From a virus: a stretch of DNA of 64,000 bases. The stretch lies in the IMG/VR virus record IMGVR_UViG_3300027659_000017, positions 33,956 through 97,955 of that record; one strand, 5' to 3'. Below the pieces are notes generated by a model. It was not told the origin of the DNA, made no database searches, and saw nothing but the letters and a program-made list of their open reading frames with translations. Shown here piece after piece: positions 2 through 38,600 of the stretch. A program made the position numbers and the translations under genes. Numbering within the stretch: position 1 is the stretch's first letter; each line of letters begins with the position of its first letter.

Positions 2-3000
2 GGTCAAAGAATAACATCAGAGATTGGTTTGTACGAAGAAGACATCTGTAAGTATAGAGAGATTGTACAGGATCCTTGTTTGAATTTTGATAAAAGATAT
101 CTTATCTCTGGTGCTTCTAGAGAAAAAGAAGATTGTACTTGGCAGGTATACTGGGTAGATGCATTTAATCCAGATAGATTTTTAAATGTTGGTGACCCAC
201 AGACATGGCCAGATGCAAGTTACAACTGGGTAGGTGGTGGAGCAAATAGTATGAACTATTATTCAAATGGTAGTGATAGTACATTTCTATGGCCGGGTGT
301 TAATTGGAATAAAAACATAACAGTAATTAACGACTGTGATTTTGTTACTAATACAAATACATTAAATTGTGATCATATAAGACTTGCTAGGTTAATGGAG
401 ACACCATGTCTTAATTTGACTTTAGGACAATCTGGTGGGACCATGGCCAATGGTACTTATTTTGCAATGATTGCATATTGTATCAAAGGCCAGAAAGTAA
501 CTGACTGGTTTTCCCAAAGTAATTTTCAGTTTATATACAATGTCAATGATTTGTCAGGTTCATTAACACTTGAGGTTAATGCTGATTCAGAAAACTTTGA
601 TGAGTTTATTTTAGCAATTGTTGAAGCTACTAACCAACAGACAGTTGCTTCTCAAATGGGATTCTATTCTACTAAGACTACAAGAATTGCAATTGATCAA
701 ATTAACATTGCTACAGTTAAAATTCCATTAGAGCAGTTACCTATTACTACACCGGTATATGAAACATCAGATCAGATGACTGATGTAAATGGATATCTAT
801 TGAGAGTTGGTCCTAGATCAAAATTTGACTTTAACTATCAACCACTTGCCAATATGATCAGAGCAAAATGGGCAAGTGTAGAATACCCAGCTGATTATTA
901 TATGAAGGGTGGGAATAAAACAAACTATCTGAGAGACGAAGTATATACATTTTACATCAGATGGGTATATGATACTGGAGATAAGTCTGCATCATATCAT
1001 ATTCCAGGTAGAGCACCTAGAAGTTTTAATGTACCTGGTATAGGTTCTAGATTTGAAACAGAGGCTTTAATAGATCCAAATGCTTTAACTATAGATGATC
1101 AAGTATTTGAAGTTTACAATACGGCTTCTATTACCCCGGGAGGATTAACTGGTACAACTACTGATGATGGAGGTACTGTAATTGCAGTAGGGGATATGGG
1201 TTACTGGCAGTCTTCTGAAAGATATCCTGACAACAGACCTGACATTTGGAATCCAAGTGAATATTGTTGGACGGGTGCTGCAGCACAAAATGGTTCTTTT
1301 GATTTATGTGGTAAGAATATCAGACATCATAAGTTTCCAGAAAACTTTATTGCTAATAGTACTTCTACAGATGCAGTACACTTTAGACCAAATGCAAACA
1401 TCCCGACCAATGGTCAAGATTTTGCAATCAGGTTAATGGGTGTATACTTTGAAAACATTACTCTTCCAAAAGATCAACAAGGTAAAGACATCCCTGGTAT
1501 TGTGGGTTATGAAATTCTAAGAGGTTCTAGAGAAGGTAACAAAACTATTGTAGCAAAAGGTATGGTCAACAACTTCCGTACTTTCCAATTAAGAGGAAAG
1601 CTGGCACAAGGAAGAACTGGACTTTATGCTAACTACCCATACAACACAATTGTACCAATTGGAAGTTCTACAGATCCTGATGACCACAACTACTTGTATA
1701 ATGATCCTTACATAAAGAATGAGGACTCAGATAACAATGTGGTTAATCAATCTATACCGTCAGATATCTTTACATTCCATTCCCCGGATACAATGTTCCG
1801 TACACCTTATTTATCTACTACAGAATTTAAGTCTTATGGAATCTTGAGTGGATATGCTGACTTAGAATTCCAGGAACCAAATGGTCATCCTAATTGGAAA
1901 TTGTTAGCAAATGCTGTTGTATTTCCTATGATTGTAGGTGGAGTTGCTGAAGCTATTATTTCTATGTTAGGTAAGAGAACAGTCAATACTCCAAAAGTTT
2001 TAAGTTATACAGAACAATATAGAGGTCTTGCTGGAGTTGGTCCAATTATTTTTGCATCAGGTTCTAGTACTATTCAGAGTTCAACAGCACAAAATACAGC
2101 ACTAGGTTTAATTGGAACAGCAGCAACTGCATACAATACTTTTGTAAATAACTATTACAATGGTCCTGCAACACTTGATGTTGGTTTAATGTTGGCTTTG
2201 GGATATTCAGGTACATTATATGAAGGTGCACTATCAAACTACGTTAATGTAGTAAATACTAATGCTAATTCAGCAGGTATTCCAAAAATTGCAAAATTAG
2301 AAGGCTCATTTGAATTTCCAAAATGGGCATATTTAGATCCAGTAACAAGACTACTTGGTGCAGCAAATCAAATAGCATATTACTTTGCAGAAGGAGCAGA
2401 CATTGCACTAAAAGTGTTTTATGCAATAACACCATATAGACAATATGCTCTACAACAAGTAAGTCATGGGTTCTATGGTAATATGTTTCCAACTTCAGCT
2501 AATGCTCTAAAAAGATTTGACATAGATGATAGTTTTTATATCCGTGATAATATACAAGAGGTGAGTAAATACCAAGATGTAGTTTCCGGAGTATACCGTA
2601 CCTATTCAATCAATAATTTAAAGAGATCAGATGCTGTAGTAGTAAGAACTAAATCCGGACCATATTATAATCCAGCATATCCAACAGGTGTTAATATAGG
2701 TCCTAATCTTATTACATCTGGTATGAGAGATGTTTCTTTGATTACACTTGGTGGGGTAGTTCAATATGATTCAAGTGCGGCATTTTTAACAAATGATCTT
2801 CCAACATTTGATGATGACAAAAAAGATATACCATTCAGTTTATCAATTGCAAGTCATTACGGTGGGTTAAAGACACGAGTAAGAAATCAATATGGACAGG
2901 TAGGAAGTGAAAATGAAATTGTAATTACTACATGTGAGCAAAGATTAAAAGACTATACTTTAGCTGAGACTTCATGGACATGTCCTATTGATTCAATATT

Positions 3001-5146
3001 CTATGAATCTAAAGTAATCATCAGAACTCCATTAGTATTTGGGGGAGATACTTATATCAATAGATATACAGAAAAGAATAATATGATGTTCTTCTATGAC
3101 TGGTTGTATGGACAGCCTGATGGATTTGAATACAACTATTATTTAAGAAGCATGATTCCTCAAGCAAGATTTAAAGCAAATAGTATTGCATATGATACTG
3201 GCTACTTGTCTGAGGTATTTAATTTTGGATCACCATCTATACCTGGTACCGGTGCATTCCCTGGAGCTTTTTATAATTTGGATTACTATGTTAATAGCAA
3301 TAGGTTCTATAATTATACAAATGATGTTTCAGAAGGTAACTGGATTGGTGACAGGTACAGAGGTTTGTGGTCTGTAAAGGAAGCATATTTCTATCTTGCT
3401 AATTCTGGTATCAGAGATTTCTTTGTTGAATCTGAAGTTCTAGTTGACTTTAGAAAACAAAGTATATACGAAGGAGGAAAACATTATGATCCGTATAGAT
3501 ATACGGACTATGTTGCAATGTTTAACATGAATCCAGACGTTATGGGAAAATTGAGTGAGTACATTTATGATTACTCACTTAGTGTATCTAAACTTTACAA
3601 CCAGTATTTTTCTGCGGGAAGTACTCAAGGTAAGTACTATGATCCTAATGTAGCCAAGTTATGTTACACATACTATCCAGATAGAATTATCTATTCATTG
3701 CCTCAACAATATGAAGCAATAAAAGATAGCTGGTTCATTTACTTAATCAATAACTACAAGGAATTCAAAGGACAAATCTCTGGAGTAAAGGCAATCAACA
3801 AAAGTGGTATATTCATTACTTTCAAAAATGAAAGTCCTTTGATGTATCAGGGTGTAGATACACTTGAAACAGATTTGAATACTAAGATTACTATTGGTGA
3901 TGGAGGATTATTCTCACAACCACAACAAGCAGTAATTAATGCTGACCGTGCATATGAATATGGTTCTTCTCAAAATAGATTGTCTGTAATATCTACTCCG
4001 GTAGGTATATTCTACATGTCTCAAAATCAAGGAAGGATATTCTCGTATGGTAGTAATCTGGATGAGATTTCTCAGGCCGGATTGAAATGGTGGTTCATCT
4101 TGTACATGCCTTATAGGCTTACACAAGACTTCCCAGACTATCCTTGGAAAGATAATCCAGTAGCAGGTATTGGATGTCAAGCAACCTATGACAGCACAAG
4201 TACCATTTTATACTTTAGTAAGAAAGATTATCACTTAAGGGATGAGTATAAAGGACGTGTGACTTATCAGCCTATGACGGCAAATGGTTCAGGAGATTAC
4301 TTTATACTTGATGGTCATAAAAACTTGAGATATAACTTGGGAGATCCTCTTATATTTGAGGATGCATCATGGACTATTAGTTATGACCCTAAGAATCAGT
4401 ATTGGATTAGTTTCCATGACTGGCATCCGGATCTAGTTATTCCTACTAAAGATATATTTATCAGTTCTAAGAAGAATACTCTGTGGAAACATAACTATAT
4501 CTGTGATGGCTACTGTAACTATTATGGTGTACAGTATGGCTTTGAACTTGAATTCCCAGTTGTATCCGGTCAAACAGTAATGACTGCTAGATCTATAGAA
4601 TACATATTAGAGTGCTATCGTAGAAATGGTAATAGTTGTATTGACCAGCACCATGTGTTGGATTACAACTTTGACCAGGCTGTGATATACAACTCTGAAC
4701 AAGTATCCGGCTACCTTAACTTGAATCTATATCCTAAGAATGATATAAACCAGTCATTGCAATATCCTAAACTAAACGGGAACCTGAGCTCATATGACAT
4801 CCTTTTCTCTAAAGAAGAAAACAAGTATAGGTTTAACCAGTTCTGGGATATAACAAAGAACAGAGATGAATTCCCTATTGGTTCAAACTATCCACCAACG
4901 GGACCAGTAATTCCAGGAACGACAATACTACAAGGTTCGTACTCTTCTGAGAATACTTGGATCACATCTCAAGATGGTTTTACACGTATACTAAATCCTA
5001 ACAATATGGATTACGGGAAACCTGAATTAGAAAGAAAGAAGTTTAGACATTACTTAAATTTCATAAATTTAAGGAGAGATAAGTGTGACAATGTAAACAT
5101 GATTCTTAAAATGTCAAGTAGTAAAAATCAATTTTCTCCTAGATAA
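2..5146 (+). CDS. Large tail/muzzle-like structural protein, 5' end cut by the window
   Basis: The frame is open from the first bases of the window. The first possible initiator inside it is a TTG at 29, but codons upstream (G-Q-R-I-T-S-E-I-G) run on without a stop and fit the downstream sequence, so the true start lies outside. At least 1714 residues are visible. The protein is rich in Tyr, Asn, Asp and Gly, lacks long coiled coils and has few Lys, which suits a beta-rich structural protein. The segment near nt 3030-3110 contains a GGDTYINRYTEKN motif followed by aromatic residues, which I associate with large tail proteins of crAss-like phages. I infer a tail or muzzle-type virion component because it sits immediately before the injected-type giants, but I cannot name it exactly. 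Its TAA stop overlaps the next ATG by one base (TAATG), suggesting translational coupling. Confidence 0.6.
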   Translation, partial: GQRITSEIGLYEEDICKYREIVQDPCLNFDKRYLISGASREKEDCTWQVYWVDAFNPDRFLNVGDPQTWPDASYNWVGGGANSMNYYSNGSDSTFLWPGVNWNKNITVINDCDFVTNTNTLNCDHIRLARLMETPCLNLTLGQSGGTMANGTYFAMIAYCIKGQKVTDWFSQSNFQFIYNVNDLSGSLTLEVNADSENFDEFILAIVEATNQQTVASQMGFYSTKTTRIAIDQINIATVKIPLEQLPITTPVYETSDQMTDVNGYLLRVGPRSKFDFNYQPLANMIRAKWASVEYPADYYMKGGNKTNYLRDEVYTFYIRWVYDTGDKSASYHIPGRAPRSFNVPGIGSRFETEALIDPNALTIDDQVFEVYNTASITPGGLTGTTTDDGGTVIAVGDMGYWQSSERYPDNRPDIWNPSEYCWTGAAAQNGSFDLCGKNIRHHKFPENFIANSTSTDAVHFRPNANIPTNGQDFAIRLMGVYFENITLPKDQQGKDIPGIVGYEILRGSREGNKTIVAKGMVNNFRTFQLRGKLAQGRTGLYANYPYNTIVPIGSSTDPDDHNYLYNDPYIKNEDSDNNVVNQSIPSDIFTFHSPDTMFRTPYLSTTEFKSYGILSGYADLEFQEPNGHPNWKLLANAVVFPMIVGGVAEAIISMLGKRTVNTPKVLSYTEQYRGLAGVGPIIFASGSSTIQSSTAQNTALGLIGTAATAYNTFVNNYYNGPATLDVGLMLALGYSGTLYEGALSNYVNVVNTNANSAGIPKIAKLEGSFEFPKWAYLDPVTRLLGAANQIAYYFAEGADIALKVFYAITPYRQYALQQVSHGFYGNMFPTSANALKRFDIDDSFYIRDNIQEVSKYQDVVSGVYRTYSINNLKRSDAVVVRTKSGPYYNPAYPTGVNIGPNLITSGMRDVSLITLGGVVQYDSSAAFLTNDLPTFDDDKKDIPFSLSIASHYGGLKTRVRNQYGQVGSENEIVITTCEQRLKDYTLAETSWTCPIDSIFYESKVIIRTPLVFGGDTYINRYTEKNNMMFFYDWLYGQPDGFEYNYYLRSMIPQARFKANSIAYDTGYLSEVFNFGSPSIPGTGAFPGAFYNLDYYVNSNRFYNYTNDVSEGNWIGDRYRGLWSVKEAYFYLANSGIRDFFVESEVLVDFRKQSIYEGGKHYDPYRYTDYVAMFNMNPDVMGKLSEYIYDYSLSVSKLYNQYFSAGSTQGKYYDPNVAKLCYTYYPDRIIYSLPQQYEAIKDSWFIYLINNYKEFKGQISGVKAINKSGIFITFKNESPLMYQGVDTLETDLNTKITIGDGGLFSQPQQAVINADRAYEYGSSQNRLSVISTPVGIFYMSQNQGRIFSYGSNLDEISQAGLKWWFILYMPYRLTQDFPDYPWKDNPVAGIGCQATYDSTSTILYFSKKDYHLRDEYKGRVTYQPMTANGSGDYFILDGHKNLRYNLGDPLIFEDASWTISYDPKNQYWISFHDWHPDLVIPTKDIFISSKKNTLWKHNYICDGYCNYYGVQYGFELEFPVVSGQTVMTARSIEYILECYRRNGNSCIDQHHVLDYNFDQAVIYNSEQVSGYLNLNLYPKNDINQSLQYPKLNGNLSSYDILFSKEENKYRFNQFWDITKNRDEFPIGSNYPPTGPVIPGTTILQGSYSSENTWITSQDGFTRILNPNNMDYGKPELERKKFRHYLNFINLRRDKCDNVNMILKMSSSKNQFSPR

Positions 5147-8100
5147 TGTATAATAAAAAAGTTCTTATTGATGCTCTCAAAACTCTGGGTACACCTTCTA
5201 CACCTAAGAAGTATAACTTCAATGATGGAGGTGCAAAAAATACTGGATTAAATGAGGTACCATACAAACAAGTTAGTGTTAAGCCATCAAATGTTGCAGG
5301 TAAAGGTTTGTTTGCAGATGAGCCAATTAAGGCCGGAGAAATAATTGGTCTTTCTCATATCAAATCTTTTTATGAAAGAGGTGGTCAGAATTATATGAAG
5401 AGTCAAGAGACACCGGTTGTAGGTAAGTATTATAATCACTCTGATGATGCATTTAATGCTGGTTCTATTATTGAAGGTAACAAAAGATATTTAAGAGCTC
5501 TCAGAGATATTGAAGCTGGAGAAGAGATACTTGGTAATTACCGTGAAGATGATGATCCTTCATTGGAAAGTCCAGATGATTTTAAGAGAGGTGGTTCTTT
5601 ACCAAGAATGCCTAGAAAGAAAAACTCCAGAGGGTATTCTAGAAGTTTAGAAGCTACAAATAAGTTCTTTACTGAAAATGCATTCTTTGCCAAACCTAAG
5701 TCAAGAAAGAATAAAGTATATGATCCTAATTCAAAATACTATAGAAAAGGAGGAGCTTCTTCTCCAGAAGAATGGGAACAAGAAATTAGAGCTATAGAAA
5801 GTCAAATAGGAAATCCTAAAAACTGGACTCTAGAGGATCGTAATCTTTTACAAGATAAACTTAATGCTTATAAAAACTGGAGAGAAACAACTCCAGAAGG
5901 ACAAGCTGTTAAAGATTCTCATAATGTACCAGGTGAGTATGAGGCTTTTATACCTGAGCATTTAAACGGAGCTCCTTATAATACATCAGGTCCAAGATAC
6001 ATAGAAGAATCTATGGAACAATATCCTGTTGGTAGTGCACCAAAAGTATATGGGAATGAGCCGGAAGATTATCAAAGATTTTTAGATTACAATCAAACAG
6101 CTCCTGAAAACAGAAGAGGTTATGAAGAGTATAGATATGGAGATCCAAATTCATATGATCACTATGGTATGTGGGATGCTCTTGGTAAACCAAAAGATTT
6201 TCAAGAAGCTCTTCAAATGAATCCTGATTGGACACCAGATGAATATGATGGATCATATCATGGATTCAGTGTTAATCCTAACACAGGTGTGTTTCTTAAA
6301 TCTGGTAAACCTGGATTAAAACCTGGAGATACTACCTGGATGGAAATAGCTGGACATTATCTTAGCCCTAGAGCAGATATAGACACACCAGTATTTGATC
6401 CAGAGATAGGTAGATTTAAATATGTTCCTAATGAAGAATATATTGAAACAAAACTTTCACCAGAAGACATAGACAAGTACGTAAAAGGAGGTTATATTGT
6501 TGAAGACATTTCTGTACCTAAACTTACTAAAGCTAGAACTGGTTTAGAAGTTATTAAAACAGCTTTACCTTTTCTTAAAAAAACTGCACCAACTATGTTA
6601 GATTTAAAAAATCTTCCAGTTGGTTTTAATCCATCTGAACTTTCATTTCCATTATTAATTAATGGTTCAAGTGGTTTTATACATACTGCACCTAACAGAA
6701 AACTTAATGATAATCTTTTTCATTTTGCAGCTAGCATGAAAAACCCATTGGAAGCAGGAAGAGCATTCAATATAATCAATCAAGCTTTTCCGTTTGCCAA
6801 TCCCTCAATATTAGAACCAGCTAGTTTAAGTCTTGACTCTTTGAATCTTTTATTAAACATGGGTCAGAAACGTGATTGGGATATGAGGTATGCTGATCAT
6901 CATATTCCATTAAACTTCTTTTCTGAACATAATGATTTATTTGGTGATCTTGGTAGTACTAGAAGTGCACTACATCAAGCAATAGGTTCACAGTCTAAAA
7001 AAACTGGTAATGAAATGGTAGATAGACTGAATGCATATCTAAATGGAAGAGGGATACAACAGAAAGCATATCTACAATCACATGCTCCAGGATTAAGACA
7101 AATCATGATTCCTAACTTTCAACTAACTAGAAAATATGCTAAAGGAGGAACTAAGAATAATCCACCTGTATTAGGATCTTTACTTAAAGCTGTTACAAGA
7201 TCTAACTATAATCCATTAAGTATACCTATTAAGTTAGCTGGTGAAAAAATTGCTAGAATAGGTCCTTTACCTTATAGAACAAAAGATGAAATAATAAAAA
7301 GTTTAACAGGTAAAATGGAACCGGCTTATTTTGGGCAAACTGGTATTTATGGTTCAGATTCATCATTATTTTGGAATGACCCAGATGGTCCATTAATGAA
7401 GGATATATATGGTCTAGGTAAAAGAGATTTAATAGCTAACTATTTTAGAGGTATTGATACAGGATTCAAACCAATTGAATATGACTTTAATAATGATCCT
7501 GGTCTACAAGCTGCCATAAAACAGTATGGTCCTTTAAAAGCTTATGAACTTTTATCTCAACAAGCTCATGGTGAACCATTAGAAGATGGTCGTATTGGTT
7601 ATGCATTACGTGTGCATAATGATGCTATGAAAAAGTATGGTTTTGATCCAGCTTTGTTTATTAAATATAATGATTGGGACTTTCATAAATTTAATCCTCT
7701 TGGATCTCCAGAATTTATAAAACAAAGTTATCATGATTTGTTTGATAGATATGGACAAGAAACTATTCCAATTGAAATTCAATCTGATGCTTCAAAAGGA
7801 AATCCTGAATTTATGATGGCAGGCAATCCAGTAACTCCAGCAGATAATATTGGAGGTCATATGGGTTTCTTACAAAGAACACCTGAGGAAGAATTTAATT
7901 TTACCACAAGAGATTTGTGGGGATTCAGACCAGAAGCATACAATAGCAAATGGAATATGGATACCAAAATGAAACAAGGCCAAACACAATTGATGGATGC
8001 TTTTGGTAAACCCTTTGTTCTTACACAGACTAATCCTATTCAATTTAACACATATAAGAACTTTAAGAAGAAGTTCTTTAAGAAGGGTGGTGCTAAGACT

Positions 8101-11013
8101 AATCCACCACTTCTTGGTAATATGGCTAAGGCTATACAAAGAGGATACAGCCCTAACTTAGTAAAGTCAATATTTGAGTTAAGTCAGAATGGTCAGAACT
8201 TGCAAGCATTAAATTATCTAAAAAATAATTACCTACGAAATATGGGTTCTTTAATGGATCTACCTGGAGCTGTGCAAGGTTCTACATTAGACTTACCACA
8301 ACTTAATGCACAACAGATAGAAGCATTACTGCATCAGAAACCTATGTTAGAAAGTGATTTTCTAACTCAATACAGTGGGTATAATCCTATACAATATGAT
8401 GGAGGTTTACCAATTGTTACTGGGGGATTGACAGGTCATAAAACTTCATTCCAAAACTTTGACAGAAACTTTAGAGGAACAGGTTTTGGTAATCAAACGG
8501 GTGGTGTATATTTTACTACACAACCAACTGTTGCTGCTGAGAATGCTCAAATTAGTAGTATGGGTGGCTATGGATTTAATCCTAATACACCAACATTTAC
8601 ACCTCATATTTCAGAAGCTATATTTAAAAATCCTGATAAATTTTTACAGTATAATGCACCCATAACAGAAGAATTGGCTAAATCTATTGGAATGATTAAT
8701 GGCATAGATCCAAGAAATAGTGACACATTAGGACAGCTTGAAATTGATCTGAGAAAAAGTTTTTCAAAAACTGATGATTATAGTGATTATGATTTTGCTA
8801 TGAAATCAGCTGCTGATGCTTTAAGAGAAAAAGGAATTGCAGGTTATTTTGATCCAAGTGGTCGTATCCAAGAAATAGTGGCTTTTGATGAAGGTGATGT
8901 AAATAAAATAAAACAGTTTGAACTTTACAAAGATCTTGATGATGCTTTGATTATGGGATATCTGAAAGCAATTTCTAAAACTCCATCAACACAAACTGAT
9001 GCAGAGAAAAAATTGGTTGCTGCATTTGAAGAGTATCTGAAAACTGGTAACAAACAACAACTAATAGATAGAAAGAAAGGTGGTGCACTACCACCATCTC
9101 TATTGAAGACTCTCAAAGGAGTTAGTAAATTGACTCCAGGTAATGCTTTAAGATCTACATTGTACTCTGCTGTTAATCCAGCTAGTTATAACATTCTAAA
9201 AAAAATAAAGGCTGCACCTCTTGAGCTATACAATAACATGATGTACAATGATACTCGTCCCTTTAGAGTAGGTATGAGTTTAAAACATGGGGCTCCTGAA
9301 TTAAGAGACAACATGTTAGAACATGTTCGTATGGATTTAAACCAGTGGAATAAAACTTCATTGGCAGATCAAATGGCTGCAATAAAAAATGCATATGGTA
9401 GCAAGCATTTGAACACATTAGAAGATATTGGAAGAAGAAGATTAGATTCCTGGGCTGTAGGTTTGAAAAGACCACAGGAGCATAATACTTTAGAACAAGT
9501 GGGTGACAATACATTTAGAATGGTTGACACAGAATATACTCCTATGTACTTAAATGAACTTTACAATGATCTATTAGCTACAAAAATTGAATCTGATCCT
9601 ATGGCCAACGGCTTTGGTTCTGTTGTTGATGATGGACAATTCAGTCCACTAGAACAACTTAGTAGAGATCAGTTTAGAGTTAAGACACAATATTTTGCTT
9701 CTAATCCAGCAACAGTTCCGTACAGATTATCAGAAAAAGATAAGATAGGATATCCAAATTGGAATAGAACAAGACATGCACAAGTTGATCCTATGGGTCT
9801 TTTATCTAAGATGACTACAGGTACGGTATATGACAATGACCGTTATGGAGTAATGGGTGGTTACAATTGGAAAATTAATGAACATCCAGAAGGAATGGTT
9901 TTTCAAACCAATGACCTATGGGATTTAAATCCGTTTGAAAAAAGAATAGATCCTATGTTAAATACTGATGCTCTTAAAAATAAGTATCTAAACATGCACT
10001 ATTACAAACCATTCCAAAACTTTGAAGCACTTCGTGCAGTGGGTGGTAAACCATTTAACATACAGAACAATTTCTTGGTAGATCCTGATTCATTTAATGT
10101 ACTAAGACAATGGGCAGAAGGTGGACCATTAAAAGGGGGTCCAGAAGAACCTATAACAGATTGTCCAGAAGGCTACACATATGATCCAGATAAATTGGGT
10201 TGTGTACCAATGTCAAGTGATGTACAAGATCCTGCTCAACAACATATTTCCAACTGGTGGATGAATAGAGAAATAAAATGGCCTGAGAATAATAAAGATT
10301 ATCAAAACAATATGGAACAGATTCTTCCTACATCAAATCCAAATTCTCCTGTTATAGAGCAATTAAACAATTGGCCGGGTTATGTTTATACTGATAATTT
10401 ACCAAGACCAGATGCTGGAGGTACATATGACACTTCAAAAAAAGAACCAAGAATATTTGTAAGGAAAAGTTTTAGTCCTGAAATGAGATTGCAAACTGAA
10501 ATACATGAAGGAACTTCACATGCCAATGCTCCAGTAGCAGATCAATTATTTGATATGCATAATAGGATTATGAAACAAAATCTTATTCCAATAAATAAAG
10601 ATTGGTCACCAGCACAAAAAGATTTTTACAATTATGTGACAGCACCAGATGAAGATAACTACCACTCTTATCTTATGAATGCCAGAAAGATATTTAATGT
10701 AGATCCTAAACAAGTTGTAACTGAATCTGATATAAATAAATGGAGACAACAAGCTGAAGAAAGTGGAATGATGGATAGAGAGAGTCCTAACTTTAATGAA
10801 GAGATTTACATTTTATTTAAATTCGCAAAAGATCCAGCATCATTGACCAATATATTTAATTACATGGCAGAAAATAAAAATGAATCTGCTGAAGAAGGTC
10901 CACAGTATACTAAAGATGGTGGTAGTATTGACTACGAATTAGGTGACACAGTAGATAAAGCTACTATGGAAAAATTAAAAGAATTAGGTTATACCTTTGA
11001 ACAAATTAAGTGA
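5146..11013 (+). CDS. Modular giant virion-type protein with SET, ART-like and zincin-like domains
   Basis: A 1955-aa mosaic. Residues about 38-137 form a SET methyltransferase-like domain: GKGLF at 52-56, I-x-x-GE after it, NHS at 97-99 and GEEI..NY at 125-132, the usual SET order. A basic linker and a KPKSRKNKVYDPNSKYY segment follow, with unknown modules separated by K-x-G-G stretches near 149, 204, 666, 980, 1311 and 1660. Residues about 1090-1260 resemble the ADP-ribosyltransferase family of phage polyvalent proteins: H1098, GGVYFTT at about 1119-1125, then EIVAFD near 1243. Residues about 903-968 and 1570-1648 are two copies of a recurring unknown module (DLW..P, then GKPF). A Cys pair (C1673, C1686) precedes a zincin-like HEGTSH at 1787-1792; the extra Ser departs from HExxH, so activity is doubtful. 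The functions are domain inferences; the targets are unknown. Confidence 0.8.
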   Translation: MYNKKVLIDALKTLGTPSTPKKYNFNDGGAKNTGLNEVPYKQVSVKPSNVAGKGLFADEPIKAGEIIGLSHIKSFYERGGQNYMKSQETPVVGKYYNHSDDAFNAGSIIEGNKRYLRALRDIEAGEEILGNYREDDDPSLESPDDFKRGGSLPRMPRKKNSRGYSRSLEATNKFFTENAFFAKPKSRKNKVYDPNSKYYRKGGASSPEEWEQEIRAIESQIGNPKNWTLEDRNLLQDKLNAYKNWRETTPEGQAVKDSHNVPGEYEAFIPEHLNGAPYNTSGPRYIEESMEQYPVGSAPKVYGNEPEDYQRFLDYNQTAPENRRGYEEYRYGDPNSYDHYGMWDALGKPKDFQEALQMNPDWTPDEYDGSYHGFSVNPNTGVFLKSGKPGLKPGDTTWMEIAGHYLSPRADIDTPVFDPEIGRFKYVPNEEYIETKLSPEDIDKYVKGGYIVEDISVPKLTKARTGLEVIKTALPFLKKTAPTMLDLKNLPVGFNPSELSFPLLINGSSGFIHTAPNRKLNDNLFHFAASMKNPLEAGRAFNIINQAFPFANPSILEPASLSLDSLNLLLNMGQKRDWDMRYADHHIPLNFFSEHNDLFGDLGSTRSALHQAIGSQSKKTGNEMVDRLNAYLNGRGIQQKAYLQSHAPGLRQIMIPNFQLTRKYAKGGTKNNPPVLGSLLKAVTRSNYNPLSIPIKLAGEKIARIGPLPYRTKDEIIKSLTGKMEPAYFGQTGIYGSDSSLFWNDPDGPLMKDIYGLGKRDLIANYFRGIDTGFKPIEYDFNNDPGLQAAIKQYGPLKAYELLSQQAHGEPLEDGRIGYALRVHNDAMKKYGFDPALFIKYNDWDFHKFNPLGSPEFIKQSYHDLFDRYGQETIPIEIQSDASKGNPEFMMAGNPVTPADNIGGHMGFLQRTPEEEFNFTTRDLWGFRPEAYNSKWNMDTKMKQGQTQLMDAFGKPFVLTQTNPIQFNTYKNFKKKFFKKGGAKTNPPLLGNMAKAIQRGYSPNLVKSIFELSQNGQNLQALNYLKNNYLRNMGSLMDLPGAVQGSTLDLPQLNAQQIEALLHQKPMLESDFLTQYSGYNPIQYDGGLPIVTGGLTGHKTSFQNFDRNFRGTGFGNQTGGVYFTTQPTVAAENAQISSMGGYGFNPNTPTFTPHISEAIFKNPDKFLQYNAPITEELAKSIGMINGIDPRNSDTLGQLEIDLRKSFSKTDDYSDYDFAMKSAADALREKGIAGYFDPSGRIQEIVAFDEGDVNKIKQFELYKDLDDALIMGYLKAISKTPSTQTDAEKKLVAAFEEYLKTGNKQQLIDRKKGGALPPSLLKTLKGVSKLTPGNALRSTLYSAVNPASYNILKKIKAAPLELYNNMMYNDTRPFRVGMSLKHGAPELRDNMLEHVRMDLNQWNKTSLADQMAAIKNAYGSKHLNTLEDIGRRRLDSWAVGLKRPQEHNTLEQVGDNTFRMVDTEYTPMYLNELYNDLLATKIESDPMANGFGSVVDDGQFSPLEQLSRDQFRVKTQYFASNPATVPYRLSEKDKIGYPNWNRTRHAQVDPMGLLSKMTTGTVYDNDRYGVMGGYNWKINEHPEGMVFQTNDLWDLNPFEKRIDPMLNTDALKNKYLNMHYYKPFQNFEALRAVGGKPFNIQNNFLVDPDSFNVLRQWAEGGPLKGGPEEPITDCPEGYTYDPDKLGCVPMSSDVQDPAQQHISNWWMNREIKWPENNKDYQNNMEQILPTSNPNSPVIEQLNNWPGYVYTDNLPRPDAGGTYDTSKKEPRIFVRKSFSPEMRLQTEIHEGTSHANAPVADQLFDMHNRIMKQNLIPINKDWSPAQKDFYNYVTAPDEDNYHSYLMNARKIFNVDPKQVVTESDINKWRQQAEESGMMDRESPNFNEEIYILFKFAKDPASLTNIFNYMAENKNESAEEGPQYTKDGGSIDYELGDTVDKATMEKLKELGYTFEQIK

Positions 11014-14000
11014 TGGCAAAATATAGAATAACAAGTATTCCTCAATCATTACCACAAGCTCGTAAAGGAGGGTCATTAAAGTACAAGAAAGCAAAATCTG
11101 GTAAATTAAAAAATTTCTTCTTTGGTAATGAAGGTGATTATGATAATATTGCCATGGATATGTTCAATACGGATATGATGAATGGATCTCCTAGAACTGC
11201 TGCCGGTAATCAACCTATGGTAGAAGTAGAAGGTGCACCACAACCATCATACTGGAATATGCAGCAAGGATGTCCTCCTGGAAAATTCTCTTACAATGGT
11301 CAATGTTTTACAGAAGCCGAGTATGTAGAGTATTCTAAAAGAGAAATGGAAGAGTACGAAAGAAGTATGAACCAGAAGAAAGCTGCTAGTCAACAAAGAT
11401 TTGAAGGTATAGTTCAAGAAAACCAACAACGAGCACAAGAACAAAGTACTAGGTTAAATCAAGAAGAAACTGAAAGATACTATACTAATTTCAAAAACTC
11501 AAAGAAGTCTGATAAGATAGATCCATACATGTCCATTCCTAATTTGAATATGGATAGAATGGTGGATATGGTTGATCCAGAAGGTAATCCTGTTTTAGGG
11601 GAGGATGGTAAGCCACAGCAAGAAACTTTAGGAGATCAATTAAAGAAATCTTTTCTTATTAACGTTACAGAGAATGGATATACACAACTGTATCCAAAAG
11701 ATATTGTCCATGACAGAATCGTTAAGCATGGTTTTCAAGCCGATCAGTTTAAGAATATCTGGGGATTAGATCCTAAACAAGTTAAAGAACAACTTGGAGA
11801 TATAATGAAACTGGCTGATGAACAGTACACTAATACTGTTTTGAACAAGGTTGCTAAAACTGCTATAGAAGAAGGTAAGTCACCGGAAGAAGTAATCAAA
11901 TCTTTACCTACATCATGGGGAGGAAGTGAATTGACTAAATATATTAAGCCATCTCAAGAAGAGGTTGATAAAATCTATTCTGAATTTGTTAAACAAAGTT
12001 TAGAAGGTCTTCAAAAACAAATAGGTGTTAAGGAAGAGGATGGAATGCTGCGGTATGACAGAAGTAAAAAAGCAGATAAACCAAAACTTGATTTTGATTT
12101 TGAAAGTGATATCTATTTAAATGCATATGATGATGATGGTACTTTAACAGCACAAGAAGTAGATCCTGTAAAAGCATATGCTCAGAAGTGGATAGCTTCA
12201 GGAAAGACTGCTAAAGAAAGATATGAAAGACAAATGCAAGTTGATGCTATCAACCGTAAAGATTATTCAAAAACATATGATGAAGCAGTTAAAAATGATA
12301 AAACATTTAAAGAAACATTTAATATAGATGATATTAATTTAAATGCATCCGGAGAGGATATAAATAATATGCCTCCTTCAGATAGAATGCAAACACTTAA
12401 ACTTAATGAGACACGTAGACTTAATGAGATCAATCAAAGCAATTCTGAGAGAGCTGAAGAAAATATAGGAGATAATGCTGTACAAACTAAACGTACTGAA
12501 GATTTAATAAAACTTACAGGTTTTACAGATGACTTTAATAAATTTATGCAAGAACGGCAACGTTTAACTATGTATGGTGTATATAAAAATGCATTAACAG
12601 ATTCAGGAATATCCTATGCAGATAAAGCTAAAGTTCTACAACATCTCAATGACAACAAAGGTGACTTAGCATATAACTATTTGTTTGACAGAAGCCGTGA
12701 TGCTTCTGATCCCTTATCACAAAATAATTATAATTCTGAACTAGGTAGCTTAATGGGTGGAGAAGGTTATGGAAATCTTTTGACACAGCCAAAAATTCAA
12801 CAAGGAAAAGCTCCAGGTGCCGATATTGGTGTAGGTGCTAAAACATGGGATGTCTTAACCAATTGGGGTGATGCTGCTTATCATGGATTAAATGCTTTTA
12901 TAGGTAATAAAGATTTTAGTGATAACATGTGGAGTATTCCAGGTAAATCTTTAAATGAAGTAAAAGCTGATGAAGAAAGATTAGGTATAGATCTAAGAGG
13001 TAACGATCAATTTAATGCTTCACTTGTACCTGAACTTTTAAATAAGTTAAATCCTTTGCATGCAGTAGATGAAATCTATAGAGGTTATAAAAGAAATGGA
13101 CTTAAAGGAGCTTCATCTAAAGCAAGTAAAGCAGCATGGGATGCTACTGAAACTGCAGCAATGTTTATTCCAGGGGGTCAAGGAATTAAATTACTACGTC
13201 AAGCATCTCTATTAAACAATACTCTAAATAAAGGTAGTCTATTAAATAAAATTTCTAAAGGTTTTAATGGACTACAAAGAGGAATTAATAGTCTAGGTTT
13301 GCCTGGACAATATGTAACAAACTACTTTAACAAAAGTCTACCAGCATTTGCTTTTGATGCAGTAAGACCATATGGTGAATTTCATGAAGGTTTTGAAAAT
13401 TTAACAGAAGGAAAAACAACAGAAGGTTTAAAAAACTTGGGATGGGGAACACTTGGTATAACTCCATATATAAGTAAAATACCACGTATTGAATACCAAA
13501 CTCCATCAGGTAGAACATTTGGTATTGGTAATACAGGAACAACTTGGACTACTGCACAAAATGAAAAACAATTTGCAGACTTAATGAAATCTAGTACACT
13601 TGATGATTTAAAAAAAGTTTATTCAGAAGAAAATCAAATTGCAGAAGCTGAACAAGCACTTAATAATGGAACAGCATTTCCAAATTATACATTTACACAT
13701 CCGTTAAAAAGACAAGCTCAACTTTCTGATGATTTTCAAAATATGACTAATCAAGAATTTGCTTTCAAAAATTTAGGATTTGCTCCAAAACCAGGAGGAC
13801 CTTTTCAACTTGGAACTTTCAATAGCCCATTAAAATATTCAGGAAAACTCGGACAGTTACAATTTGGTACAGGAAAATTTTTTCCAGCTAAACTTCAGGG
13901 AATAGAATACAGACCTAATATACAGTATGATACTGCACCTATGACTATTGGTTTTAGAAATGGAGGTTCTATTCCTAAAGCTAATGTAGGTATGATTGTT

Positions 14001-17000
14001 AGTGGACTGCAAAGTTTAGGTAACCCTACAAAGATGAAAACTGGTGGAGCATTACCACCACCTAACTTAGGTAAGATAGTAAAGGTAGCAAACAGTTTAG
14101 CAATTCCTACAAAACAGATGGTAAAGTCGTTACCAAGTATGGGTAATCAACCTGGTTTAGAATGGTTACAAAGGTGGTATTCAAGTCCAGAGTTAGCAAC
14201 AAGAATTTCAAACACTATTGATCCATCTTCTGCTTTTGATCTTAAAAAACATAGTGTTTCTTTAGAAAAGTTAATGGCAGCACAGCCTAAAACATATTCT
14301 CAATTAGCAGCAAAAAACGGTTTACTACAAACTATTCCTTATTATATAGGGACAGGTGGTTTGTACTCAGGTGGTAATTTATATATCAATCGTCTTTTAT
14401 CTAAAGCAAATCAAGAGTCTTTTACAGCTCATGAAGGAACTCATTTATATGATGATCCAAGACATGCTGTAACCCAACCAACGGTAACACAAGAATGGAT
14501 AGGACCTGATGGACAGAGAAGAGTTCAATTTGATGAAAATTCACTTGTCCAAGATGATTATCATTTAGATGCAAATGGAAGACCTACCTTTTTTAATCAA
14601 AAAGAAACCGAAATGTTATTAAAACCTTTTGGTCTTTCTAAACCTCCTTTGTATCCAAACAAAATGGATCTTTTTGGTAATGATTATTTTAGAAGATACT
14701 ATACACATCCAGATGAAATTCATGCTAGAATGAACCAAGGTAGATTTATGCTTAATAAATCTCCAGAAGATCCTTTTACATTAGATGATTTTAATAAAGT
14801 ACAAACTTTAGAGGACTGGTTTGGAATGGGTAAACATATAACAGATAAAAATGCTTTTCTGGATTTGATGAATAAATTCTATGGAGTTGTCCCTGCTGCA
14901 ATAGTAGGTTCTCAACTACTAGATGAAGACACAGAACAAAGAAAAAAAGGAGGATCTACACCAAAAGCTAAAGCAAATCCACCAAGAGTATTGGGAAGAA
15001 CAGTTCAAAGTATTAGTAGTATGTTGAAACCTACTTCTCAATTTAGAACTACCATGAATGCATTAGAAAATTTTGGAAGTACTTTACCTACAAATATGTC
15101 TCTTTTGAATTCAGTTGCTAAACCATTCCAAGGTATTAATAATCCTGTCATGGATTTAAATGTACAAGGCTTACTGAAGTCTCCAACTGATTTGGGTGGT
15201 ACAGGAATAATAGGTTATGGAGATGACATACATAAAGGTGATCCATGGTATCAAATAGATCCTGCAGATTATGGAGGAAGTGAGACATGGAGACAAGAAG
15301 GAAGAACTGATGCTGAAGGATCTATAGAAAGATATCTTGGTAATCTAAAACCATATGGACCGGATGCATTTAATAATATAGGAAACTTTGATTTTGAGAT
15401 AGGATCAGATGGATGGAAAGCAAGAAATGCAATGATGGGAATGGCCAGTCCACTGTACCAACCTCAGAAAACTCTAGGCACAGGAGATTTTTATACATTT
15501 GATGAGTTCAGTAATTTAGTTCAAAAACAAACACAGTATTTAAATGATAGAGCTGCTTTTGATGAAATGTATCCTGAAGACCCAGGTATGAGAATGTGGA
15601 ATGCTTTACGTGGTGATACACAAAGAGATGAAATGTTTGCTAATTTATTTCCCAATTCTGGTATACAAAACTTTAAACAAAAGTTTTATACTCCAGAACT
15701 TTTAGATCTTATGAAAAAAACAGATCGAGATGAAAAAGGTAGAAATTTATATGATCAATTGGTAAGTAATACAAACATGGGTGATAATAAAATGTTAAAC
15801 ATGAGGTCTTTAAATAGTGTAACAAAAGGAGAAGATACTTTACCTTCTACATACAAAGACTTAGTTGAGTACTTAAAACCTGATAGTTATTTATATACGG
15901 CTCCAGCTAAAGAGGTTGTTGGTGAAATGAGAGGAAGTCTTGGACTAAAATTAGAAGACATTAATAATGCTACACCAGAGCAACTTGAAAAATGGAAACA
16001 AGAAATTATTAAAAAAATGTATGAACAAGCTAAAGAAAGATGGGACAAAGATTCAACTATTCCTTTATCTGGTTATGATGCATATGAAAAATTCTTTAGT
16101 AGGTCAGGTTCTAAGAATAAACTTGGAGGAGCTATACCAAAAGCACGACTGGGGTTAAGTGTAATTGGAAAGAATGTAAATAACATAGAAAACATTCTTA
16201 ATGGTACAGCTAAATCAACAAATCTATTAAGACTAGTTGATAGAGCTATTACTCCGGTTGGTTATGGAATAGTTGGAAAAATGTTAGCATCTCCATTTAC
16301 TTATATTAAACCTTATGTGCCGCAAACTTATGGTCTTAAGAATAGATATGATGCATGGAATCTATATAATCAAATACAACCAAAATATGGAGGCCTGAGT
16401 CTTAATGAAGATGGTACAGTTGCGGTAAAAAACTTTGATATTTCAAAACCTATATTAGATCAAATAAGAAATTCAGAAAGAAACTCTTTTGAAACTGAAG
16501 AATTCAATAAGATGAATGGACATTTGGCAATTAACTTTGGTGGTGTTCATGGAAATGGTCTTGTAGCTAAAGGAGTTGATGATACTGGAAGACAGTATAT
16601 GGATTTTACTGATACATGGGATTTACACCCTTTACAAAGATTTGGTAATTTGTTACCCAAGCCAATAAGAAATATTGAAGTTGGTCAAGTAACAGGTGGT
16701 AAACCTTTTGATCTTCGTAATAGAATTTACTTTGATGGAGAAGGAAATTATTTTAATCAAGATGGTACTCCATTAATTACATATAGTAAAGAAGTACCAG
16801 GATTTGACTATACAAATGGAGCATTACAGGTACAGCAAAATGCATCAACAAGAAATATAAAAGAAATTGAATTACCAGATAATAAAAATGTTGAGTTTGT
16901 TGCAAGTTCAGGTGTACCTGAAAATGAATTTCAACAAGTAAATGAAGAATTTAATGATGCTTATCACCAGTCTAATTTAAACAAATTAGCTACAATAGGT

Positions 17001-17264
17001 ATTGGTTTGGGAATAGGTGGTATTAATTCATTTATTGATTATCAAAATAACAAACCTATGCTAATGATTGATGTAAGAACTGGTAAGGTTGTTACTGTTA
17101 CAAAAGCTGAGATGGAAGCAAACCCAGGTAGATACATTAGTACCAAAAATCTAAAACGTGGTGGTGCTATTTCCAAAAAGAAAACAGGTGGTGTAGTAAC
17201 TGAGCTCACTAAAAAAGAAATAGAGCAATATGTTAAAGATGGCTATATCATTGAAGATTACTAA
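11013..17264 (+). CDS. Modular giant virion-type protein with zincin (HEGTH) module
   Basis: I place the start at the ATG at 11013, which overlaps the previous TGA (TGATG); a GTG at 11010 is also in frame. That gives 2083 aa. The N-terminus (MAKYRITSIPQSLPQARKGG) belongs to a tag shared with the next proteins. A Cys pair (C87, C98) sits in a CPPGKFSYNGQC stretch. The first ~900 residues are helical and charged. Hydrophobic, Gly-rich stretches follow, then K-x-G-G/NGGS junctions near 983-1016, 1310, 1703 and 2048. Between the first two lies a clear zincin module with HEGTH at about 1140-1144 and a downstream THPDEIHARM that could supply the third metal ligand. Residues about 1835-1912 hold another copy of the recurring DTWDLHP...GGKPF module. 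A possible membrane segment (LATIGIGLGIGGI) lies near nt 16990-17030. The C-terminus, EIEQYVKDGYIIEDY, matches a motif in its neighbours. Probably packaged in the virion; this is inferred from context. Confidence 0.75.
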   Translation: MAKYRITSIPQSLPQARKGGSLKYKKAKSGKLKNFFFGNEGDYDNIAMDMFNTDMMNGSPRTAAGNQPMVEVEGAPQPSYWNMQQGCPPGKFSYNGQCFTEAEYVEYSKREMEEYERSMNQKKAASQQRFEGIVQENQQRAQEQSTRLNQEETERYYTNFKNSKKSDKIDPYMSIPNLNMDRMVDMVDPEGNPVLGEDGKPQQETLGDQLKKSFLINVTENGYTQLYPKDIVHDRIVKHGFQADQFKNIWGLDPKQVKEQLGDIMKLADEQYTNTVLNKVAKTAIEEGKSPEEVIKSLPTSWGGSELTKYIKPSQEEVDKIYSEFVKQSLEGLQKQIGVKEEDGMLRYDRSKKADKPKLDFDFESDIYLNAYDDDGTLTAQEVDPVKAYAQKWIASGKTAKERYERQMQVDAINRKDYSKTYDEAVKNDKTFKETFNIDDINLNASGEDINNMPPSDRMQTLKLNETRRLNEINQSNSERAEENIGDNAVQTKRTEDLIKLTGFTDDFNKFMQERQRLTMYGVYKNALTDSGISYADKAKVLQHLNDNKGDLAYNYLFDRSRDASDPLSQNNYNSELGSLMGGEGYGNLLTQPKIQQGKAPGADIGVGAKTWDVLTNWGDAAYHGLNAFIGNKDFSDNMWSIPGKSLNEVKADEERLGIDLRGNDQFNASLVPELLNKLNPLHAVDEIYRGYKRNGLKGASSKASKAAWDATETAAMFIPGGQGIKLLRQASLLNNTLNKGSLLNKISKGFNGLQRGINSLGLPGQYVTNYFNKSLPAFAFDAVRPYGEFHEGFENLTEGKTTEGLKNLGWGTLGITPYISKIPRIEYQTPSGRTFGIGNTGTTWTTAQNEKQFADLMKSSTLDDLKKVYSEENQIAEAEQALNNGTAFPNYTFTHPLKRQAQLSDDFQNMTNQEFAFKNLGFAPKPGGPFQLGTFNSPLKYSGKLGQLQFGTGKFFPAKLQGIEYRPNIQYDTAPMTIGFRNGGSIPKANVGMIVSGLQSLGNPTKMKTGGALPPPNLGKIVKVANSLAIPTKQMVKSLPSMGNQPGLEWLQRWYSSPELATRISNTIDPSSAFDLKKHSVSLEKLMAAQPKTYSQLAAKNGLLQTIPYYIGTGGLYSGGNLYINRLLSKANQESFTAHEGTHLYDDPRHAVTQPTVTQEWIGPDGQRRVQFDENSLVQDDYHLDANGRPTFFNQKETEMLLKPFGLSKPPLYPNKMDLFGNDYFRRYYTHPDEIHARMNQGRFMLNKSPEDPFTLDDFNKVQTLEDWFGMGKHITDKNAFLDLMNKFYGVVPAAIVGSQLLDEDTEQRKKGGSTPKAKANPPRVLGRTVQSISSMLKPTSQFRTTMNALENFGSTLPTNMSLLNSVAKPFQGINNPVMDLNVQGLLKSPTDLGGTGIIGYGDDIHKGDPWYQIDPADYGGSETWRQEGRTDAEGSIERYLGNLKPYGPDAFNNIGNFDFEIGSDGWKARNAMMGMASPLYQPQKTLGTGDFYTFDEFSNLVQKQTQYLNDRAAFDEMYPEDPGMRMWNALRGDTQRDEMFANLFPNSGIQNFKQKFYTPELLDLMKKTDRDEKGRNLYDQLVSNTNMGDNKMLNMRSLNSVTKGEDTLPSTYKDLVEYLKPDSYLYTAPAKEVVGEMRGSLGLKLEDINNATPEQLEKWKQEIIKKMYEQAKERWDKDSTIPLSGYDAYEKFFSRSGSKNKLGGAIPKARLGLSVIGKNVNNIENILNGTAKSTNLLRLVDRAITPVGYGIVGKMLASPFTYIKPYVPQTYGLKNRYDAWNLYNQIQPKYGGLSLNEDGTVAVKNFDISKPILDQIRNSERNSFETEEFNKMNGHLAINFGGVHGNGLVAKGVDDTGRQYMDFTDTWDLHPLQRFGNLLPKPIRNIEVGQVTGGKPFDLRNRIYFDGEGNYFNQDGTPLITYSKEVPGFDYTNGALQVQQNASTRNIKEIELPDNKNVEFVASSGVPENEFQQVNEEFNDAYHQSNLNKLATIGIGLGIGGINSFIDYQNNKPMLMIDVRTGKVVTVTKAEMEANPGRYISTKNLKRGGAISKKKTGGVVTELTKKEIEQYVKDGYIIEDY

Positions 17265-35643: not shown

Positions 35644-38600
35644 ATGGCATGTAAATTAAATAAATTCCAGGTAGAGGATTTATATACTGTACTTTATGCA
35701 GAAATATCTGATAGAATAAAAAACCCTGAATTACCTCCTATAGATATAAATGATTTAGTAAAAGAAGCATACAATGTTGTGAATACTAATACAGGTGATC
35801 CTGTTAAAGCTATGTACTTTGCACAAGCTATTCCTGATGTATTCCAGTTAGTTGTACAAGATGAGAAAGCTAATGATTACTTGGTAGAAAATGACTTTGA
35901 TTTTAATGGTCTTGCAAAAATGAGAAAAGCTTTTGCTGATCTTATTGAAGTTGGTAAAGCTGTTGAGACTCCAAAAAAAAGTAAACAGGAAATTGATTCT
36001 GAAATCAAGAATGTAAACAGAGCAAAAAAAGATTTTGCTCCACAAATCAATGAGGAAAGTTTCTGGTCTCACAATGAAGATAATGGTGCTAAGGTAGCTT
36101 ATCCTCTTGTGACTTCATTACAGTGGGCATATGCAATGAACCCTGAAAGTCTTACGGAAGAAGAAAGAAATAAATTGGATCCGGAGAAGAAGTTGTTTTT
36201 TGAAGTCATTAAAGCCATAGTAGAGTTATCTAAAAGAAGAGTTGGTGCAGAACCACTTAAATATGGAGACGAAGTTATTGCATTGACTGCCCAGTTAACG
36301 AGAAACATCCCAAGAGAACTTCTAACAAGAGATAGTAGAGAGCACCTAGATAAATATCCAGATGACAATGGTATTGCTGTTGTGATTTCTGATACAAAAG
36401 GAAACCCTTTATACTTCAAACCAGATGGTACTCTTACTGATAATCCAGAAGAAGGTCGTATAGTATACCAATATCTAAGAAAAGTTAATTTAGTAGATGG
36501 AAAACTTTTACTTTCTAATAGAAGTAACCGTCACTATAATCTTGTAGAACCAGAAGCTATTGCCACAAGACAGAAAAATCTTATTGAGCAAGAAAGTAAT
36601 GGTAAGGTCAAGATGACCAATCAAGAATACAAAGAACTTGTTGCATCTATCAGGGAACGTCAGGAGAGAGAAATGAATCAGTTATATCAATTGAGAAAGT
36701 TGATTGAAGAAAATGATTCTAATTTACAAGTAATTCTTCCTATTCTAGGTGGGAGCTTTGGTATCCCTGTTGAAGCAGTTAAGACAATGACTATTGAGCA
36801 AGCTGGACTTACTGAAAAAGAAGTAACAGGTTATACTGCTATTACAACAGGTAAAGATAAAGGTAAGCAGTATCTAATAGTTAGCAGAACAAAAGCCGGT
36901 GGACTTGTAGTAGATCAAGAGATCTTTTTACAAAGATCTGATATGTATAAAGAACTGGCAGAACAAATTGCAACTGTCTTAACTACTAAAGCTAAATTAA
37001 AAGGTAGAGAGTTAACACCAGACGAGAGAAAGACTTACTTTGAAATCTTCATCAATAATACATTGATGAAAGATCCTGCTTCTGGGTATAAGAAAAATCT
37101 TCCGTATAACAGAGATAGAATTAGAACTGTTGTCCGTATAGTAAATAATAAGAAGACTCTATTTGTAGAATTGAATGGTAAGGAAATCCCACAGGATGTA
37201 TTATCTACTGAAGAAGGAAGAGATTTAATCATCAATCATTTGATGAGTGCTAGACCAAAGGATAAAGTAAAGAATGCTTTTTGGCCAGCAAACATTCATT
37301 ATAACAATAGTCTTAATGGAAAAGTATTTACAGAATATGAAATTGTTGGGGATAAGATTGTAGAATCAACAAGAAAGTATTTTGATTTTATCAAACCTCT
37401 AATGAAAGTAGAGTACCCTGATGAGACTAATGCTTATGAGAATGGTATAAACTCATATCTAGCATATGCAATTCCAGAAGGAACTGTTGAATCTAAGGGT
37501 ATTATTCCTATTGGAAGACCAAAACCAGCATCTTCACCTACCTATAGTAGAGTAAAACAAGATAAGGAAACAACAACACCGGCTCCAAAAAGACAATCTA
37601 GACCAGCCCCGGCAACTACTGCCACTGCTAAGACCACAGAAGATAGTCCTTATACTACTTCTATGAAACAACAGATTGAAGCAGCCGGTGGGAAAAGTGA
37701 AAACTATAAAGCTGGAATGAAAGTAAAAGATCTAGCTGAAAAGGTAGAACTTACAGAAGAACAAATAGTTGAATTTAGAAAGAATGCATTGGATTCAGTT
37801 CCTGCTCCTACTCCTGCTGCAAAAAAACCGGCAACTCCAGCTACAGAAGAAGAAGTCAAAGAAACAAATGTTCAAGTCAATCCTGCTACAAGAATAAACC
37901 TGATTGATGACATCATCAACGGTTCATCTAATTCAGCATTCTATAAGAAGAAAGGACTAGATAGATCTAAACTTAGAAGTAAGTACTTAGATAAAGTCTT
38001 TACATCAAAAGCAGATAGACAATCTGCTGAAACTTGGTGGGATAAATCTCCACTTAATATAAAAAATGGTGGTTTTATAACTCTTGAAAGAATTACTGAA
38101 ATAGTAAACTCTGATGCATTTGCAACATGGTCCGGATATGGTATCACTTTGTATGAAGCTGATGGTGGTACTATGGTTGATGTGTATCATGAAGCATGGC
38201 ACGGTTTCTCTCAATTACTTTTGACTAAGGATGAGAAAATTAAACTTTACCAAGAGATACAAGGGCTAGCTAAATATAAAGGAAAAAGTTTCTTTGATAT
38301 AGAGGAAGACCTGGCTGAAGAATTTAGAGCTTATGCTAAGTCTAAAGGTAAAAAAGAAACTAAAGGATTCCTTGGTAAAATCTTTAACAAGATTTACCAG
38401 TTCATCAAAAAGATGTTCGGTAGAACTACTAAGAAACAGGTTGCTACAAATCTTCAAGACATTGATACTGTTAAAGAATTATTTGACAAGTTGTACAGAG
38501 CCTCTGAAAATCCAGAGATTCTGTCTACTCTAAAACCTTCTATGGATAATGTTATGTTTGGGAAACTAAACAGAAGCAAGACTATCAATGATGACTTTAC

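Follow-up and report, generated by a model that had tools for sequence, protein, structure and literature searches.

A SET methyltransferase-like module in a mosaic giant protein at a cargo-type gene position of a crassvirus-like phage

The SET fold methylates lysines on proteins, and its apparent presence at the N terminus of a giant phage protein raises the questions of whether the domain is genuine and what it might do there. We examined a window of 64,000 nucleotides, the last 64 kb of the 97,955-base virus record IMGVR_UViG_3300027659_000017. All features described for the window lie on its plus strand. The domain is part of a 1,955-aa mosaic protein (positions 5146-11013) encoded directly downstream of a 1705-aa crassvirus muzzle protein (29-5146; Pfam crAss_MUZ PF25731, E = 1.1e-10), and a second giant protein of 2084 aa follows (11010-17264). 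The same record encodes a crassvirus major capsid protein (PF23898, E = 1.5e-30), and the phage is crassvirus-like as judged from its capsid and muzzle families. Its nearest annotated muzzle relatives are distant (Leptolyngbya phage Lbo-JY46, 25%; Cellulophaga phages phi4:1 and phi17:2, 28%, over part of the protein). The affiliation extends to other phages with the module: among 24 SET-bearing records tested, the muzzle family was found in 22 and the capsid family in 21, at least one of the two in 23, and neither in a single 22-kb fragment. Further downstream, three giant ORFs of 2502, 3623 and 2113 aa (28134-52858) occupy what would be the crassvirus RNA-polymerase/cargo gene position, as judged from position and motif only. 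The 3,623-aa ORF (35644-46515) contains GGDFDIDKL, the kind of DFDID motif found in phage virion RNA polymerases; a PDB sequence search with this ORF gave no match.

A preliminary description of the sequence had placed a SET-like domain at 5254-5556, which corresponds to residues 37-137 of the ORF. The domain is real: sequence profiles and the predicted fold agree on a SET core in residues 42-132 (5269-5541), which is matched by Pfam, PHROGs, profile and fold searches. The N-terminal 165 aa matched Pfam SET (PF00856) with E = 2.9e-9 and 37.7 bits (curated cut-off 22.4), the domain alone with E = 1e-9, and the whole 1,955-aa protein with E = 7.1e-7, still above the curated cut-off. The domain also matched phrog_28741 (E = 3.4e-6). 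Single-sequence phmmer searches against the PDB were weak (vSET, E = 0.27; EZH2, E = 0.07), and a 13-member family profile reached the SET domain of MLL1 at 1.8e-9, EZH2 at 1.5e-7 and vSET at 2.6e-7. All 13 alignment members matched Pfam SET, and 10 of them additionally gave a weak match to SAF (beta-clip).

An AlphaFold2 model of the domain built from the same 13-member alignment had a mean pLDDT of 85.8. Foldseek returned 175 PDB matches at E<=1e-3, and the best 50 of these were all SET/PR-domain proteins or complexes with one. The top match had E = 8e-6, and TM scores by query ranged from 0.51 to 0.60 among the matches listed, which include Legionella LegAS4 (5czy); vSET (3kma) matched with E = 1e-5 and TM 0.60/0.68. 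Viral SET proteins were also matched in BFVD. The rmsd was mostly 4-6 A over 105-140 columns, indicating that the core is common and the loops differ. A chance match of motifs is ruled out by the Pfam SET, family-profile and Foldseek matches.

The sequence landmarks had been placed correctly: GKGLF at residues 52-56, IKAGE at 61-65, NHS at 97-99, RDIEAGEEI at 120-128 and NY at 131-132. The expectation that Asn97, His98 and Tyr132 occupy the cofactor and catalytic positions also held, with Asn97-His98 (5434-5439), the AdoMet-binding NH motif, aligned to the NH of vSET, and Tyr132 (5539-5541) aligned to its Tyr at position 105, the catalytic Tyr of vSET. We assessed conservation in 37 sequences, namely the window and 36 distinct relatives. 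S48, G54, G68, H71, N97, H98, E127, Y132 and L140 were invariant in all 37. Within the GxG motif (GKG, residues 52-54; 5299-5307), the first Gly was kept in 30 of 37 sequences and the second, G54, in every one. His71 (IGxxH, 5356-5358) was invariant within this phage clade. Most relatives were found with patterns that include G68, H71 and L140, so that the invariance of these three residues is biased by selection through the search. In contrast, N97, H98, Y132 and G54 lie outside the search patterns, and their invariance was not selected for. Further, dN/dS (omega) of the SET domain was 0.04-0.27 in the 25 closest pairs tabulated; between the window and its relative L014 it was 0.12, at a dS of 1.37. 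We conclude that this SET domain is under purifying selection and retains its cofactor and catalytic residues.

In classical SET enzymes, SET-I helps to form the substrate groove. SET-I is already short in the window, without a full-length insert: the window and eight other sequences have 12-13 residues between IGLAH and NHS, and most relatives are without them. These compact relatives keep the second Gly of GxG, the NH and the Tyr, and have almost no SET-I. Since SET-I varies across the SET superfamily, we regard the short form as variation and not as exclusion from the superfamily; the lack of these 12-13 residues of the substrate-binding SET-I in most relatives could nevertheless alter activity. 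Bacteroidota chromosomal SETs retrieved with a compact-SET query were ordinary full-length forms with RYANDA in place of HNHS, so that, in this set of sequences, the compact phage form appears to stand apart. The SET module is closed by a post-SET segment, LExPDDFKRGG (5563-5595).

The protein around the SET domain varies strongly between relatives. Retrieval through the muzzle gene gave 21 contigs, 17 of them distinct and with a readable gene downstream. A scan of viral contigs with the middle of the giant ORF as query found no relatives, probably because the modules are shuffled. Among complete copies, the post-muzzle gene product ranges from 445 aa (L032) to 1,955 aa (the window). The SET module is present in 12 of the 17 distinct muzzle relatives and is N-terminal in most; it is internal in L016 (residues 475-590) and lies at an internal position of the next ORF in L020. 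Two contigs added by profile search carry it internally (L037) or C-terminally (L057). L022, L024, L030 and L032 have another small module in its place, and in L029/L031 the leader joins directly onto the following cassette, with SET deleted. The five muzzle relatives without SET had none elsewhere in their records, which are fragments; its absence from five of 17 indicates that the module is dispensable in some. The module that replaces SET after the leader in the four relatives reads ITMQGVNYPVMA...PGADYVDEFPQMKKGG, and L060/L062 have a similar stretch ahead of their SET.

Both ends of the protein stay constant while the interior changes. The N-terminal leader (MYNKKVLIDAL...; residues 1-28, 5146-5229, MYNKKVLIDALKTLG...) has similar counterparts in L013, L015, L022, L024, L029, L030 and L032 and stays in relatives even where SET is deleted or replaced. 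At the other end lies a conserved tail of about 30 aa (residues 1925-1955, 10918-11010, GGSIDYELGD...LGYTFEQIK). Directly after the SET module, a small GG-bounded cassette (residues 151-203, 5596-5754, LPRMPRKKNSRGYSRSLEATN...YYRKGG) is common to many relatives with or without SET. Further swappable modules fill residues 204-1924 (5755-10917), with boundaries near GG 448, 667, 981, 1312 and ~1664, giving modules of residues 204-448, 449-667, 668-981, 982-1312, 1313-1660 and 1661-1924. The second giant GG-module protein is likewise mosaic among relatives.

Exchange of these modules left two further traces. For 48% of the ends of local alignments (HSPs), a GG lay no more than 12 aa away, vs 19% (sd 3%) with rotated GG positions; none of 500 rotations reached the observed 0.48, and breakpoints collapsed per protein in 15-aa bins were near GG in 38% vs 22%. 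Because the sequences are related, we read this contrast as strongly indicative rather than as an exact probability. Additionally, similarity of SET and of muzzle was loosely coupled (Mantel r = 0.34, P = 0.015, n = 12), which is the pattern expected if modules are exchanged. L017 and L018, for example, have muzzles that are 75% identical and SETs that are 34% identical, vs 64% and 62% for L017 and L020. Where the preliminary description had seen a single domain, the evidence thus shows a family of mosaic proteins, with SET as one of the modules that can be exchanged.

Gly-Gly motifs occur at the module boundaries of both giant ORFs (5146-17264), with Lys or Arg before most of them. They are found at residues 28, 149, 202, 448, 667, 981, 1312, 1664 and 1925 of the first ORF and at residues 20, 1012, 1314, 2051 and 2060 of the second. 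The motifs could serve as linkers, mark points of recombination or be cut by proteases. The protease option is suggested by the boundaries only, and few such motifs occur in the post-muzzle proteins of crAss001 and phi4:1.

Pfam and PHROGs searches with the remaining modules of the window ORF gave no significant family match, and matches to ParG, cEGF and Nuf2 were weak, below cut-off and discarded. The ORF has one named domain, SET, plus several conserved nameless modules. Enzymatic domains were found next to SET in relatives, for which Pfam domains were counted over 32 proteins. L021 contains ART-PolyVal (residues 1226-1376, E = 6.6e-13), L069 Amidase_2 (E = 1.6e-16), L063 SLT with LysM and L074 SLT; a lysozyme-like stretch in L046 fell slightly under the cut-off, and a GNAT match in L061 was borderline.

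Two modules of the window ORF carry motifs of their own. Module 982-1312 (8089-9081) has GHKTSFxNFDR...GGVYFTTQPTVA and a C-terminal EIVAFDE and appears ART-PolyVal-like by eye. An hhalign comparison with the ART of L021 reached E = 0.014 and a probability of 3, so that an ADP-ribosyltransferase is a lead only, and a Pfam ART search in the genome of the window phage gave no match. Module 1661-1924 (10126-10917) contains HEGTSH (HExxxH), where L019 has HEFGHH (HExxH) and L013/L014 have HEERTR. This series suggests a metallopeptidase-like module, decayed in some phages; an AlphaFold model of a relative's modules had a mean pLDDT of 49 and no fold match, and we do not claim a metallopeptidase.

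The closest functional precedent for the window SET is vSET, the PBCV-1 protein A612L (PDB 1n3j/3kma), a chlorovirus histone H3K27 methyltransferase. Both are short viral SETs, and their GxG, NHS and catalytic Tyr align. They differ in context: vSET stands alone as a protein of 119 aa, belongs to a eukaryotic virus and acts on histones, whereas the window SET is a module of a giant phage protein, and its bacterial host is not known to have nucleosomal H3. PBCV-1 packages vSET in its virions, and the protein has been implicated in the shut-off of host transcription (PMC7019647); its packaging in the chlorovirus particle is known, whereas that of the window SET is inferred only.

Among prokaryotic SETs, the archaeal enzyme acts on MC1. 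It shares a prokaryotic setting with the window module, as do chlamydial cpnSET/NUE and Legionella LegAS4, but architecture and delivery route differ in the window protein. cpnSET methylates a bacterial nucleoid protein, so that a SET enzyme can target such a protein (PMC10117894).

Databases already contain annotated SET proteins from phages. phrog_28741 is a phage-encoded SET of ~100 positions with no assigned function, and the 971-aa BFVD entry A0A218ML49 ("SET domain-containing protein, uncultured virus") is a structural match (E = 4e-8) that may share the present giant-protein architecture. Other phage SET relatives found with the window sequence as query are stand-alone ORFs of ~100-220 codons, unlike the giant module. 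Searches of an open-access literature collection yielded no relevant paper on phage SET in crAss, cyanophage or virions. As far as we searched, the compact SET versions without most of SET-I and the placement of SET in Crassvirales cargo-type proteins are new.

Large multi-domain polyvalent proteins of phages and conjugative elements are predicted to be delivered together with DNA and carry mixed enzymatic domains, including ART and GNAT (Iyer et al. 2017, PMC5512222). The SET-bearing relative L021 resembles them in carrying ART-PolyVal, whereas cassettes linked by GG and the pairing of leader and tail characterise the window clade. The main text of PMC5512222 does not contain the phrase "SET domain" and does not mention crAss.

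Like gp45/gp46 of phiCrAss001, the giant SET protein is encoded directly after the muzzle gene; it lies in the virion/cargo gene block, in line with the earlier description of a virion-type protein next to injected-type giants. In phiCrAss001, the muzzle is gp44, with gp45 onward following. According to the part of Bayfield et al. 2023 that concerns these proteins, gp45, gp46, gp47, gp49 and gp50 were detected in virions, and their ejection ahead of the DNA has been proposed; gp45 and gp46 are large, and that part describes no enzymatic modules in them (PMC10172136). The window ORF is far larger than gp45/gp46, and mosaic. Downstream of the muzzle homologue of phi4:1, the genes gp041, gp040, gp039, gp038, gp037 and gp035 are annotated from virion MS/MS. 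In a phmmer search of crAss001 ORFs, the window giants did not match gp45/gp46, and the phi4:1 cargo proteins likewise showed no similarity; packaging of the window protein is therefore an inference from position.

We consider it an even prospect that the product of ORF 5146-11013 is a polyvalent cargo protein that is injected and whose SET module is a lysine methyltransferase. Gene position points to packaging in the virion, the crassvirus model to ejection and the motifs to methyltransferase activity; a target can be proposed by analogy only. The giant protein would be packed in the virion alongside other post-muzzle proteins, be ejected ahead of the phage DNA and refold in the host cytoplasm, where the SET module would methylate lysines of host proteins with host AdoMet. 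A nucleoid-associated or a transcription/translation protein is a plausible target, and its methylation could ease takeover as infection begins. The earlier suggestion of an effector acting on a host protein is thus upheld in part: the cargo/effector role gains indirect support from the post-muzzle position and from the ART, GNAT and peptidoglycan-hydrolase modules in SET-bearing relatives, and the host target stays with the analogy. That dozens of related phages swap SET in and out of such proteins suggests that it is one of several enzymes delivered at infection.

This exchange also bears on a rather unlikely alternative, in which SET is an active lysine methyltransferase that modifies a phage protein in the producing cell prior to packaging; its substrate could be one of the virion or cargo proteins, a DNA-binding protein that the phage encodes, or the giant protein of which SET is part. 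SET sits among virion genes, and L073 has a stand-alone 110-aa SET gene directly upstream of its muzzle gene. In chlamydiae, NUE methylates itself, and cpnSET acts on Hc1, a protein of the same bacterium (PMC10117894). However, presence, absence and shuffling of SET among phages with muzzles 60-80% identical fit a dispensable effector better than a maturation enzyme. That the ORF product is not virion cargo at all but is made in the infected cell and works there as an ordinary effector or regulator would accord with its lack of sequence matches to crAss001 or phi4:1 cargo proteins; we consider this very improbable, as the ORF adjoins the muzzle gene, the same position in cultured relatives encodes MS-detected virion proteins, and the peptidoglycan-hydrolase modules in the same proteins of relatives fit a role in entry.

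It is also improbable, if somewhat less so, that the SET (beta-clip) fold was kept and the enzyme function lost, leaving a binding, folding or packaging module with at most AdoMet or a peptide as ligand. The compact relatives without most of SET-I and the weak SAF match in 10 of 13 members are in line with such a loss, as is the conservation of the non-catalytic S48, G68, H71 and L140 on a par with the catalytic residues, of which G68, H71 and L140 were pattern-selected. Degenerate SET/PR domains, however, usually lose some of the Asn-His and catalytic Tyr residues, and these are present in 37 of 37 sequences, down to ~34% pairwise identity.

Crassviruses rank among the most abundant viruses of the gut, and to our knowledge no function is known for much of the cargo that they inject. 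A SET domain with intact motifs, under selection yet shuffled among cargo-type proteins, would point to phage lysine methylation directed against bacteria. It is a concrete, testable enzyme, and the GG-bounded cassettes let the payload of this clade be read module by module. More speculatively, and in our view unlikely, this crassvirus clade could carry a payload protein built of cassettes that are joined or cut at Gly-Gly sites, and its SET module, which in most members lacks most of SET-I, could represent the smallest class of lysine methyltransferases, modifying bacterial chromatin or transcription proteins on injection; if so, chlorovirus vSET would have a counterpart in phages, adapted to bacterial hosts.

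SET genes also occur outside giant proteins and in more than one copy. The stand-alone compact SET gene of L073 (5971-6300, 110 aa), on a crassvirus fragment, is a minimal natural version of the domain. The record of L078 (G031) has a second, stand-alone SET ORF of 130 aa (10193-10474) in a genome that also encodes a giant SET protein. Finally, two SET copies that are 93% identical (L066 and L068) lie at opposite ends of the 118-kb record IMGVR_UViG_3300044675_001548, and the pair is either tandem, if the genome is circular, or the product of a strain-mix assembly.
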